Positions 60,893 to 64,000 of a DNA stretch of 64,000 nucleotides are shown here, piece after piece. How positions within the stretch are numbered: position 1 is the first letter of the stretch; each line of letters opens with the position of its first letter. This DNA comes from Leisingera daeponensis. GTDB taxonomy: Bacteria; Pseudomonadota; Alphaproteobacteria; Rhodobacterales; Rhodobacteraceae. The stretch is from contig NZ_JAHVJA010000013.1 of NCBI RefSeq assembly GCF_019801465.1, forward strand, positions 1 to 64,000, written 5' to 3'. The notes below the pieces were generated by a model. The model did not search any database and was not told the origin of the DNA. It worked only from the letters and a program-made list of their open reading frames with translations. The translations under genes and the position numbers were made by a program.

Positions 60893-61396
60893 TTAAGCGC
60901 CCCCGGCGCCATCTAGGAATTCCATCGGATCGAAGTCCTCGGGCAGGTCTTCCATCCACTTCTCGGCCTGGGCCAGTTCCTCTGCCTCGTAGGTTTCCGG
61001 CTTCCAGATCTGAAAGGTGTCGCCTGCGGCGATGAAAAAAGCCTCTGCCTCAAGGTCGATCTTCTGGCGCAGCTTGGCCGGCAGCACCAGGCGGCCGGTC
61101 TCATCCACGTTGGTCGGGAAGGACTGGCCGTGGAACATGCGCTGCAGCATCTTGCGCTGCATCGAGCCGCGCGGCAGCTGGTCGATCTTGGCGTCGACCT
61201 CCTCGATCGCCTCTATAGTATAGCATTCCAGGAAGTTGCGGCGCTGATCGCCGTAGACGATTACCAGTTCGGGGTTCTGGCCGGGCTGCCAGTTCGGATC
61301 GGCAGCCTCCAGCACACGGCGAAAAGAGGCCGGGATTGACACCCGCCCCTTGCTGTCCACCTTGTGGTGGCTTTCGCCCCTGAACCTGCGGCCCAA
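60893..61396 (-). CDS. mraZ: transcriptional regulator MraZ
   Basis: 167 aa with two SpoVT-AbrB-like domains: GESHHKVDSKGRVSIPASFRRVLEA (first) and FPTNVDETGRLVLPAKLRQKIDL (second). MraZ forms rings and binds repeated TGGGN sequences in its own promoter, repressing the division cluster. The start is TTG at 61396, giving (M)GRRFRGESHHKVD, with AAGGACGG seven bases upstream. The frame stays open far upstream, but that part covers the leader terminator and is not homologous. It is preceded by an unusually long leader. Confidence 0.95.
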   Translation of the reverse strand: MGRRFRGESHHKVDSKGRVSIPASFRRVLEAADPNWQPGQNPELVIVYGDQRRNFLECYTIEAIEEVDAKIDQLPRGSMQRKMLQRMFHGQSFPTNVDETGRLVLPAKLRQKIDLEAEAFFIAAGDTFQIWKPETYEAEELAQAEKWMEDLPEDFDPMEFLDGAGGA

Positions 61397-61444
61397 TTTC
61401 CCGTCCTTTTCGCGCGTCCCTCGCGTTAACCCGTCCCCCAGAAT

Positions 61445-61485
61445 GAAAAGGGGCGGGTTGATCTGCTGCCACTGATCAACCCGCC
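61445..61485 (-). terminator. attenuator/terminator hairpin in the mraZ leader
   Basis: Perfect 12-bp arms GGCGGGTTGATC (61452-61463) and GATCAACCCGCC (61474-61485) with a 10-base loop. On the minus strand the stem is followed at once by CCCTTTTCATT, a short U-tract. It lies upstream of the mraZ start, so read-through would control the whole cluster. Confidence 0.85.
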
Positions 61486-61655
61486 GCCTTGGCCCGCTTT
61501 GCGGGATGTCCGACTGCACGCGCCACCTGGGGGGATGTCTGCTCGCCCGCGCGCCGGATCTCTTGGTTCGATGAAAGCGAAGGCCTGTATGAAACCTGCT
61601 TGTTTTGTTTTTGGCTCTGGGGTCGTTTGGCGCCCCGTCCCTCGTCTCATCTGAT
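61445..61655 (-). ncRNA. upsM: UpsM-like leader small RNA of mraZ
   Basis: In Rhodobacter sphaeroides the long mraZ leader yields a very abundant small RNA, UpsM, by premature termination ahead of mraZ (known from the literature; roughly 200 nt). Here a proximal promoter would start RNA near 61655, and a terminator-like hairpin ends it near 61445, about 210 nt. No other gene lies in between. The 5' end is inferred from the promoter guess; the 3' end is firmly marked by the hairpin. Confidence 0.65.
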
Positions 61656-61660
61656 GAACT

Positions 61661-61691
61661 AGGGATACTATGGGAATTGATGGCCCTGCAA
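61661..61691 (-). promoter_or_regulatory. proximal dcw promoter overlapped by three MraZ-box-like repeats
   Basis: Minus-strand TTGCAG (61691-61686) and TATCCC (61667-61662) are 18 bp apart and would start RNA near 61655. On the plus strand the same bases read AGGGA-, TGGGA- and TGGCC- at 61661, 61671 and 61681, each ten bases apart, the (TGGGN)N5 spacing known for MraZ sites. A bound MraZ ring would cover both promoter elements. Confidence 0.55.
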
Positions 61692-61808
61692 CTCTTTTTT
61701 GCGGGAAACCGCCGAAGCCTTGACAAGTTATCCGCAGATTCGGGCCAGATTCGCGCCTGACTCAGGGAGGAAATCGGAACTTGTTGTAAAAAAATACAGG
61801 TCAGACAC

Positions 61809-61865
61809 TAGATATAGATGCGAGTTGCGCAGGCCAATTTTTTCCCATAGTTTCCCGCGATTCCG
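61809..61865 (-). promoter_or_regulatory. distal dcw promoter preceded by three MraZ-box-like repeats
   Basis: Minus-strand TTGGCC (61837-61832) and TATCTA (61814-61809) are 17 bp apart. Directly upstream, on the minus strand, stand CGGA, GGGA and GGGA half-sites (plus-strand TCCG 61862, TCCC 61853, TCCC 61843), 9 and 10 bp apart. This block is a near copy, in inverted orientation, of the repeats at the proximal promoter (both contain GGGA-A/T-ACTATGGGAA). Confidence 0.5.
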
Positions 61866-62010
61866 CCCGCCGCACTCCAGGATTCCACAAAGTTCCCCCT
61901 ACGTTCGCACAATCTATCGTACAGAAGCGCCGGAAATCCCCTTAAGCAGCGTTTGAACACCGAGTGATTCGCGTCATCAAGAGGGTTCGGACGGGAAAAG
62001 GGCCATGATT

Positions 62011-62148
62011 TCCCGTAGCACCCATGAATTCCCGCCAGTCCCGCGAATTCCCAGTCGTCCCATATGCTCCCAGCCATCCCGCGGCATCCCGCGCGGCACA
62101 GCAGGTGCCATACAGTCCCAATTCCGGCGGGCAATCCCATCCGCGCCC
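62011..62148. repeat. phased array of YGGGA half-sites upstream of the division cluster
   Basis: On the plus strand TCCC (once ACCC) begins at 62011, 62020, 62030, 62039, 62049, 62058, 62068, 62077 and 62087, spacing alternately 9 and 10 bp. TCCC at 62116 and 62135 and GCCC at 62145 stay in the same phase. Read on the minus strand this is a 19-bp unit with two YGGGA halves, e.g. TGGGAATTCG followed by CGGGACTGG. It is not in multiples of three and has no frame, so it is not coding. Confidence 0.8.
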
Positions 62149-62230
62149 GAATTTCAGCGCGGAACAAGACCGGAGGCAGCGCGCACCGCCGCCGCTCTGC
62201 AGCCTTTCCCGGCCAGGCAAAAGGCAAAAA

Positions 62231-62249
62231 GCCCGCCGGAGCGGCGGGC
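62231..62249 (-). terminator. rho-independent terminator of mrp
   Basis: 8-bp stem GCCCGCCG / CGGCGGGC with loop GAG. On the minus strand TTTTT follows directly (plus-strand A-run 62226-62230). It lies 54 bp after the mrp stop and separates mrp from the mraZ control region. Confidence 0.9.
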
Positions 62250-62302
62250 CTTCAAGGCGCTCTTATATATAGAGGCCGGATTTCCAGGCGCCGCCGGGCG
62301 GC

Positions 62303-63367
62303 TCAGGCCATGCCGCCGCCGATCAGACCCTCGGCGATGCGGGCATAGGCCCGGGCCATCGGCCCCTCCCCCGCGGCGACGGGCGTGCCACTGTCGCCGG
62401 CCAGACGGGTTTCCAGATCAATCGGCAGCGCGCCCAAAAGCGGCAACCCAAGCGCCTCGGCCTCTGCCGCGACGCCGCCGTGGCCGAAGATGTGATGCTC
62501 GCCGCCGCAATCCGGGCAAGTGAAGAAAGACATGTTCTCGATCAGCCCCAGCACCGGGGTCTTCAGCGTGCTGAACATGTCCATCGCCTTGCGCGCATCC
62601 AGCAGCGCCACATCCTGCGGGGTGGAGACAACGATGGCGCCGGACAGCTCCGCCTTGGTGCAGAGCGTCAGCTGCACATCGCCGGTGCCGGGCGGCAGGT
62701 CGACGATCAGCACGTCCAGCTCGCCCCAATTCACCTGACCCAGCATCTGCTGCAGGGCGCCCATCAGCATCGGGCCGCGCCAGACCACTGCCTTGCCTTC
62801 CTCCAGCATGAAGCCGATCGACATCAGGGTGACGCCATGAGCGTGCAGCGGCTCGATGGTCTTGCCGTCGGGGCTGGCAGGCCGCCCTTTGGCGCCCATC
62901 ATGCGGGGCTGAGAGGGGCCGTAGATGTCGGCATCCAGCAGGCCCACCTTGCGGCCCTGTTTCGCCAGCGCCACGGCGAGGTTGGAGGACACGGTGGATT
63001 TGCCCACCCCGCCCTTGCCGGAGGCGACCGCCAGGATGCGTTTGACGCCAGCCGGCTTCAGCGGCTCCGCCTGCGGTTTCGGGTGGCCGCCAACCTTGAG
63101 GCTGGGCGCGGGCTGCTGCGGCGCATGGGCGGTGAGCGCGGCGGAGACTTTCTCAACCCCTTCCAGCGACAGCACCGCGGCCTCGGCGGCTTTGCGCAGC
63201 GGCTCCATCAGCTTGGCGATTTCGGGGCTCGGCGCCTCGATCACGAAGCTCACCTTGCCGCCCTCGATGCGCAGCGCCCGCAGCATGTCGCGCGATACCA
63301 GGGTGCCGCCGTCCGGCAGCGCCAGCCGTTCCAGCACAGCGCGAATCTGTTCCTGTGTCACACCCAT
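62303..63367 (-). CDS. mrp: Mrp/NBP35-family iron-sulfur cluster carrier ATPase
   Basis: 354 aa. An N-terminal MIP18-like domain (residues 1-80) precedes the P-loop ATPase: deviant Walker A SGKGGVGKST (116-125), LIVDLPPGTGDVQLTL, and the metal-binding CxxC in SFFTCPDCGGEHHIFG. Proteins of this family carry [4Fe-4S] clusters to apo-proteins. It lies upstream of the mraZ region on the same strand but ends in its own terminator, so it is not cotranscribed with the division genes. Confidence 0.96.
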   Translation of the reverse strand: MGVTQEQIRAVLERLALPDGGTLVSRDMLRALRIEGGKVSFVIEAPSPEIAKLMEPLRKAAEAAVLSLEGVEKVSAALTAHAPQQPAPSLKVGGHPKPQAEPLKPAGVKRILAVASGKGGVGKSTVSSNLAVALAKQGRKVGLLDADIYGPSQPRMMGAKGRPASPDGKTIEPLHAHGVTLMSIGFMLEEGKAVVWRGPMLMGALQQMLGQVNWGELDVLIVDLPPGTGDVQLTLCTKAELSGAIVVSTPQDVALLDARKAMDMFSTLKTPVLGLIENMSFFTCPDCGGEHHIFGHGGVAAEAEALGLPLLGALPIDLETRLAGDSGTPVAAGEGPMARAYARIAEGLIGGGMA

Positions 63368-63708: not shown

Positions 63709-63918
63709 ATGGCAGCAGCACAACAGATCTCCGCGGTGAACATTGCATCCCCGGCAGGCTTCCTGGATGCCCTGCTGGTCAAGTTCGCCCGCTACCGCCT
63801 GTACCGCCAAACGGTCAATGAACTGTCGGCACTGACGAACCGCGACCTGGCCGACCTGGGCCTGGACCGGTCCGAAATCAAGCGCATCGCCTATCAGGCG
63901 GCCTACGAGAACAACTGA
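63709..63918 (+). CDS. DUF1127 family protein (CcaF1-like)
   Basis: 69 aa. The DUF1127 signature is at the C-terminus: VNELSALTNRDLADLGLDRSEIKRIAYQAAYENN. The N-terminal 40 residues form one basic helix (LVKFARYRLYRQ). In Rhodobacter sphaeroides the homologous CcaF1 is an RNA-binding protein encoded just upstream of the CcsR small RNAs and involved in their maturation. The same arrangement is seen here: CCUCCUCCC hairpins begin eight bases after the stop. GAAGGAACGG precedes the ATG. Confidence 0.92.
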   Translation: MAAAQQISAVNIASPAGFLDALLVKFARYRLYRQTVNELSALTNRDLADLGLDRSEIKRIAYQAAYENN

Positions 63919-63925
63919 TAGAGAT

Positions 63926-64000
63926 CAGGTCCTTTCTCCTCCTCCCTTGAAGGACCTGTCTTTGGCGGTGGCATCCTCCTCCTCCCTGATGCCACCGCAC
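63926..64000 (+). ncRNA. CcsR / 'cuckoo'-type small RNA (continues past window)
   Basis: Two hairpins carry the same loop motif. Hairpin 1: CAGGTCCTT (63926-63934) with AAGGACCTG (63950-63958), loop containing CCTCCTCCC at 63938-63946. Hairpin 2: GCGGTGGCAT (63965-63974) with ATGCCACCGC (63989-63998), loop containing CCTCCTCCC at 63978-63986. Both stems are perfect. Two CCUCCUCCC-loop hairpins per RNA, placed behind a DUF1127 gene, define the CcsR family in Rhodobacteraceae. The window ends before any second copy can be seen. Confidence 0.88.

Follow-up and report, generated by a model that had tools for sequence, protein, structure and literature searches.

The DNA analyzed here (hereafter, the window) is a stretch of 64,000 nucleotides from the 4.89-Mb, 48-contig assembly of Leisingera daeponensis, a member of the Rhodobacteraceae. 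On the minus strand of the window, mrp is followed by a terminator-like hairpin, mraZ and rsmH, and the intergenic region between mrp and mraZ is 900 bp long (Table 1). The genome contains two PF02381 matches, both inside this mraZ gene, whose product matches the solved structures 1n0e/1n0f/1n0g, 9qlg/9r4j, 9sx6/9sz7 and 9qlr and, among the best 80 of 446 relatives, is closest to the MraZ of Leisingera aquaemixtae (99%). MraZ, a transcription factor that is very widespread among bacteria, forms a ring of many identical DNA-binding subunits (eight or more). It has been described as "octameric toroidal" (PMC7761207).

In Rhodobacter sphaeroides, the sole promoter from which mraZ is transcribed is that of UpsM, located 268 nt upstream of the gene (Weber et al., PMC5089854), and a long leader with a terminator is considered a feature of the Rhodobacteraceae (PMC5089854). 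The locus in the window resembles this arrangement in its long 5' leader with a strong terminator-like hairpin near the end, which was not among the terminators of a simple scan of the region (2 such sites compared to 1.2 expected). A simple scan of the intergenic region for sigma-70-like promoters found no such site, so the promoters were positioned from the published UpsM start together with conservation. The gene-proximal block of boxes described below, block A, ends at a median position of -265 from the start of the MraZ match (quartiles -271 and -258; -258 in the window), that is, where the UpsM promoter is expected, and from this position and its conservation we infer that block A lies at the UpsM/mraZ promoter. 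At E≤1, an Rfam search gave no match in the array discussed next, and two weak matches, both under the gathering score, overlap the mrp terminator region; short open reading frames across the array were dismissed as mechanical.

Table 1. Features of the mrp-mraZ region of the window
Feature	Position	Strand	Evidence
mraZ coding region, start codon not settled	60896..61402	-	PF02381, E 2e-17
UpsM-type mraZ leader with terminator-like hairpin (GGCGGGUUGAUC...GAUCAACCCGCC then CCUUUU)	61430..61660	-	fold z = -3.1
Block A: reverse GGGA boxes (61662, 61672) and a third, degenerate box (61682); inferred UpsM/mraZ promoter	61661..61690	+	PWM match
CTATATCTAGTG motif between A and B	61806..61817	-	conservation
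Block B, 173 bp upstream of A: one GGGA-N6-GGGA pair, forward	61840..61863	-	PWM match
Core of block C: five double units of 19 bp with 10/9-bp box steps	62001..62091	-	7-9 of 10 boxes in register in 13/13 Leisingera-type loci
Block C outlying boxes (62116, 62135, GCCC at 62145)	62116..62148	-	retained in part in Leisingera units 6-7
Intrinsic terminator-like hairpin 3' of mrp, between mrp and the array	62227..62253	-	terminator scan
mrp (NUBPL/ParA-like), upstream of the array	62303..63367	-	same search as for mraZ

The box array in Leisingera-type loci

The minus strand, which is the coding strand of mraZ, carries nine GGGA/GGGT boxes at steps of 10, 9, 10, 9... bp between 62011 and 62090; the corresponding plus-strand TCCC/ACCC tetramers start at 62011, 62020, 62030, 62039, 62049, 62058, 62068, 62077 and 62087 (steps 9, 10, 9, 10, 9, 10, 9, 10). 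Re-counting thus confirmed the array reported in the original prediction, and chance does not approach it: when the 900-bp intergenic region was dinucleotide-shuffled 5,000 times and both strands were scanned, the longest chain of GGG[AT] boxes at 9/10-bp steps comprised four boxes, and this only once, compared to the nine observed. In the rest of the 64-kb window, no such chain exceeds two boxes, and the next-best 9/10-step chain over all 256 exact tetramers comprises four. Three additional in-phase copies had been proposed to extend the array to 62148; two of these are boxes (plus-strand tetramers starting at 62116 and 62135), but the third, at 62145, reads GCCC instead of T/ACCC, and the outlying boxes are off the register of the core by one base (29 bp from 62087 to 62116, not 28). 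The double units of the core conform to the consensus Y-GGGA-AWTCAT-GGGA-CNGC. The pattern GGGA-N6-GGGA-N5-GGGA-N6-GGGA with at most one mismatch yields three overlapping matches in the 4.89-Mb genome, all inside the array (0 in the reversed control), so the genome scan suggested along with the original prediction turned up no second array of this kind.

Conservation of the array was assessed in 13 Leisingera-type loci (the window, L003-L012, L044 and L061), the upstream regions of which were divided into double units of a constant 19 bp, counted from an anchor on the right-hand side. (One of these records, L011, JAHVJD010000007.1, is titled Nocardioides marinus and has a Leisingera-like dcw region; it is probably a mislabelled assembly.) In all 13 loci, the array lies at -608 to -614 from mraZ. 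Among the ten boxes of units 0-4, GGG is kept in nine in the window and seven other loci, in eight in three loci, and in seven in two; all 13 lack GGG in the second box of unit 0, and L007, L010 and L061 lose others. When the 65 units are pooled, the first box retains its three G's in 64, 63 and 61 units, and the second box in 64, 65 and 51, with the linker 3' of the second box being near random. The boxes thus hold the 19-bp register while the spacers drift, in line with the proposal that selection acts on the tetramer and its spacing, and the persistence that was anticipated for relatives in the Roseobacter group is indeed found.

The same comparison bears on the possibility, raised in the original prediction, that the array is a neutral, degenerate minisatellite produced by slippage. 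Run length does vary, as slippage would have it: the unbroken GGG[AT] run comprises nine boxes in the window, L009 and L012, three in L006 and L007, and two in L061, it also differs among genera, and separate long runs exist in Roseovarius nubinhibens and others. However, in units 1-4, spacer identity is 0.576 between genomes in the same register but only 0.395 between registers within a genome, which equals the between-genome, out-of-register level (0.396); therefore, the units are old and orthologous and have not been homogenized within genomes in the 13 loci. With the boxes near-invariant as well, a minisatellite origin appears extremely improbable. The run in Roseovarius nubinhibens (L057), a genus other than Leisingera, comprises seven boxes upstream of mraZ and belongs to block C as defined below.

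Three blocks of boxes upstream of mraZ in Rhodobacteraceae

To place the array in the context of the family, we collected 212 mraZ upstream regions (the window, 80 named loci, 28 of 30 loci, 98 fetched stretches and 5 loci with four-box matches), of which 201 remained after identical ones were dropped; given that the named loci are the best 80 of 446 relatives and that MraZ was found in 380 of 388 genomes, the 201 regions are a sample. Within 850 bp of mraZ in these regions, GGGA-GGGA pairs at 10 bp occur 326 times in the forward and 204 times in the reverse orientation, compared to 8.5 +/- 3.3 in shuffles, with lesser peaks at 19 bp (143) and 9 bp (59) among the forward pairs and at 20, 29 and 30 bp (48, 77 and 72) among the reverse ones. 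The two orientations occupy different places: 199 of the 204 reverse pairs fall within -350 to -226, and 323 of the 326 forward pairs lie upstream of -400, in clusters at -475 to -425 and -725 to -550 (25-bp bins throughout). At least one forward pair is present in 173 of the 201 regions, and a reverse pair in 172.

The resulting family-wide layout consists of a reverse block A at the promoter, a forward block B about 172 bp upstream, and a forward block C, mostly 112-198 bp beyond B. The block A matrix (TTGATTtCCATGAATTCCCATGGCATCCCT) matches in 193 of the 201 regions and the block B matrix (TGGGAAaTcATGGGA) in 183; block C, defined by at least one TGGGAAaTcATGGGA-type pair beyond B, is present in 170, and all three blocks in 167 (at the PWM cut-offs used, 8 regions are without A, 18 without B and 31 without a scored C). 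Against this background, the array looks like a Leisingera expansion of the third of three family-wide blocks of putative MraZ operators. The original prediction, right about the array itself, overlooked both its membership in a family-wide block and the intervening block B; the site that it placed at 61661-61691 corresponds to block A, a putative operator reverse in orientation.

Several observations bear on the link between the boxes and MraZ. An exact search for the four-box pattern in 394 family genomes gave 14 matches, spread over 12 genomes (0 in the reversed control), all 256-684 bp from the start of an MraZ match. The exact sequence TGGGAAWTYATGGG occurs once in each of 17 out of 61 family genomes (control 0), and its place could be compared with listed mraZ positions in two of the 17 (G043 and G053), in both of which it is upstream of mraZ. 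In L. daeponensis itself, YGGGAAWTYRYGGGA with one mismatch has seven matches, three of them at this locus (two in C, and one that is block B) and four scattered, compared to two in the reversed control, so no further MraZ-like target is clear elsewhere in the genome. In Escherichia coli K-12, TGGG occurs at -43, -33 and -23 relative to mraZ, with AAATTG as the first spacer; we take these boxes to be the exact sequence bound by MraZ. The MraZ boxes of E. coli have been located upstream of mraZ, and MraZ represses from them (PMC8475190, PMC7761207). The likeness to the locus studied here is close, in that both have TGGG direct repeats 10 bp apart, upstream of mraZ and the start of the dcw cluster, and the first step of the E. 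coli operator, GGGAAATTGTGGG, nearly equals the pairs here; this shared box, together with the location of the four-box matches, bears out the association with MraZ put forward originally. The E. coli operator differs in being a single three-box cluster beside mraZ, in contrast to three separated blocks, two of which are remote and opposite in orientation to A, and a 10/9-spaced array.

The spacing calls for comment. The 10-bp direct repeats of TGGG(A/N) are found in A, in B and within each pair of C, but consecutive pairs in C are separated by 9-bp steps, whereas known MraZ operators have a plain 10-bp step, so the 9/10 alternation counts against assigning C to a loop formed by MraZ. In two of the 12 genomes with an exact four-box match, block A itself is longer, with four reverse boxes at steps of 10, 9 and 10 bp in one (L086, G286) and five at 10, 9, 10 and 10 bp in the other (L096, G230); in both, these boxes precede the MraZ match by about 256-266 bp; thus, the 9-bp step arises also when A is extended. 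In Burkholderia cenocepacia, a promoter fragment with four seven-base repeats separated by 3-base spacers is bound by MraZ in EMSA, and a distal probe (-386 to -136) is not bound (PMC7761207). Mollicute sites consist of direct repeats AAAGTG[T/G] (PMC8475190). The available text of these reports describes no remote blocks such as those found here.

Outside the family, in a set of 28 alphaproteobacterial mraZ loci (out of 30, from 94 genomes with a match), 10-bp reverse TGGG pairs are present in 23 and forward pairs in only 4; two of the five loci lacking a reverse pair (L253 and L258) have less than 130 bp of upstream DNA, and the boxes of L247, where the contig ends, are placed 189 bp too far upstream. 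Given this difference, block A is probably the ancestral operator, and blocks B and C look like an addition of the Rhodobacteraceae. In genomes with no MraZ match, no TGGG pairs were found upstream of rsmH (0 of 8, mostly AT-rich, GC 0.30-0.52, compared to one of three MraZ-bearing loci likewise examined over 700 bp). The low GC content would by itself reduce the number of boxes and, together with the scarcity of pairs in the MraZ-bearing loci, makes this a weak comparison; the 8 genomes come from 10 with an rsmH match, with the fragments L274-L276 (G301, G462), whose upstream DNA is not usable, left out and L272 covered over about 434 instead of 700 bp.

Helical phasing of the blocks

Examination of the distances between the blocks, measured from PWM anchors, reveals steps of about 10.7 bp for both A-B and B-C. 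The 178 A-B distances fall into 150-152 (4 regions), 159-163 (31), 169-174 (130) and 180-182 bp (9), with none at 153-158, 164-168 or 175-179 and four outliers at 121, 204, 226 and 227 bp. Among the 170 B-C distances, 166 are within 112-198 bp, with peaks near 114, 124, 135, 146, 158 and 167. With one genome per genus, R is 0.82 for A-B (n=101, best period 10.80) and 0.72 for B-C (n=92, best period 10.65), values that overstate independence because the genomes are related, compared to 0.09 (n=114) for the control distance from A to mraZ. Of 2,000 sets with a jitter of at most 6 bp, not one attained the observed value for A-B or B-C, whereas 1,529 did so for A-mraZ. Restricting the analysis to regions with a single scored C pair and no flanking in-phase GGG, to guard against an artefact of choosing between neighboring boxes, leaves R at 0.75 for a period of 10.70 and 0.57 for 10.0 (n=80). 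In the 35 genomes in which mrp was placed, the distance from C to the end of mrp gives R of 0.06-0.14, compared to 0.78 at 10.7 for B-C. Helical register is thus kept in A-B and B-C while the distances vary; phasing measured directly from A to C, using looser "last pair" anchors prone to shifts of one box, is less pronounced (R=0.54 at 10.5, n=148).

Kinship of the genomes does not easily explain this phasing. In a FastTree phylogeny of 103 MraZ+RsmH rows, the minimum number of turn-class changes is 9 for A-B (98 rows scored) and 38 for B-C (97 rows). Among neighbor pairs differing by at least 5 bp, which may share a member, 71 of 89 differences are within 2.2 bp of a multiple of 10.8, with about 46% expected. 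In the window, the C pairs are located 158, 177, 196, 215 and 234 bp from B (the pair at 215 falls below the pair score), and only the first two are near favored phases; because successive sites of the array are mutually out of phase, the phasing argument applies to the B-proximal C site, not to the array as a whole.

Turn-sized steps are also apparent in the distances to A and B of another conserved motif, CTATATnTnGTG, which, counted together with its variant CTAnATATnGTG, is present in 82 of the 201 regions at -480 to -330 and corresponds to CTATATCTAGTG in the window; we take it to resemble an NrdR box.

A putative MraZ repression loop

The explanation that we favor, and regard as fairly likely, is that the array is an enlarged auxiliary MraZ operator, and that MraZ rings bridge blocks A, B and C, looping the control region of the dcw cluster. 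Rings bound at the three blocks would touch or share subunits, such that the intervening DNA would loop (about 172 bp between A and B, and mostly 112-198 bp between B and C), and the looped promoter would be repressed in proportion to the MraZ level. A site of two or three boxes would leave some of the DNA-binding subunits of an MraZ ring unused. Looping would account for the preservation of whole helical turns in A-B and B-C because the operators of a loop have to face the same side of the helix, and the forward orientation of B and C versus the reverse orientation of A argues against one continuous wrap of DNA around a single ring. Nucleation of MraZ rings or sensing of division-gene dosage, the functions suggested for the array originally, would not be the whole story, given that the helical register points to looping rather than only these.

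Alternative readings of B and C have to be weighed against MraZ bridging. MraZ bound at these blocks might act as an enhancer, with the looped complex activating the very strong UpsM promoter and A serving as an independent repressor site; helical phasing suits activation loops equally, UpsM is reported to be transcribed more often than any other sRNA in R. sphaeroides (PMC5089854), and for mycoplasmas an activating role of MraZ is cited (PMC7761207). We nevertheless consider an enhancer unlikely, given that B and C share their box with repressor operators and that MraZ is a repressor in E. coli and M. genitalium (PMC7761207, PMC8475190). It is, in our view, quite improbable that MraZ binds only at A and that another protein at B and C (NtrX, CenR or an unknown factor) contacts the promoter complex. 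NtrX and CenR act upstream of mraZ in R. sphaeroides, with ChIP signals there (PMC7240162, PMC9275681), and may use the same upstream region as the blocks, and the CTATATnTnGTG motif indicates that the putative loop contains conserved sites of other kinds; the motifs published for NtrX and CenR (GCA-N9-TGC; TGA-N8-TGA), however, are not GGGA-N6-GGGA, and one box is common to A, B, C and the E. coli mraZ operator. The many tandem sites and the strong conservation of the boxes would also suit a passive sponge that titrates MraZ with gene dosage and forms no loop, but a sponge needs no helical register, and the phasing of A-B and B-C makes this possibility very slim.

Under MraZ bridging, the Leisingera C block would have grown to four or five double sites. 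Two turns of 10.7 bp exceed the 19-bp step by about 2.4 bp, and each next site is therefore rotated by about 80 degrees, so that MraZ sites would be displayed on several faces of the helix, with higher avidity and looping less dependent on exact phase. Whether a repression loop formed by MraZ across three phased, oppositely oriented blocks controls the division and cell-wall cluster and the leader sRNA throughout the family, with the Leisingera spiral array making the loop avid and less phase-dependent, is a broader proposition on which we are evenly divided.

GalR, LacI, AraC and lambda CI are looping repressors with separate operators at whole helical turns. The arrangement described here would be similar in this respect but would differ in that the regulator is a ring of MraZ, with an AbrB-like fold, and in that the phasing is read from evolution rather than from insertion mutants. 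In the literature searched, outside of which were most subscription papers and all bioRxiv preprints, we found no remote MraZ operator, phasing or looping control of a dcw cluster; the main text of the UpsM study in R. sphaeroides contains none of the terms "repeat", "binding site" and "TGGG", and its available passages describe no upstream operators (PMC5089854). Known MraZ operators use three or four boxes, leaving the purpose of a many-subunit ring a puzzle; remote operators in strict helical register would give the ring an obvious job, that is, bridging distant DNA. The natural length variants of A-B (about 151, 161, 172 and 182 bp) are a ready set for testing such bridging.

Apart from the mraZ region, positions 63709-64000 on the plus strand comprise a small open reading frame that is presumably DUF1127-like and, 3' of it, a match to a CcsR1/ar14-like sRNA (E 3.1e-6 and 4.5e-5), below the gathering score and cut by the end of the window.
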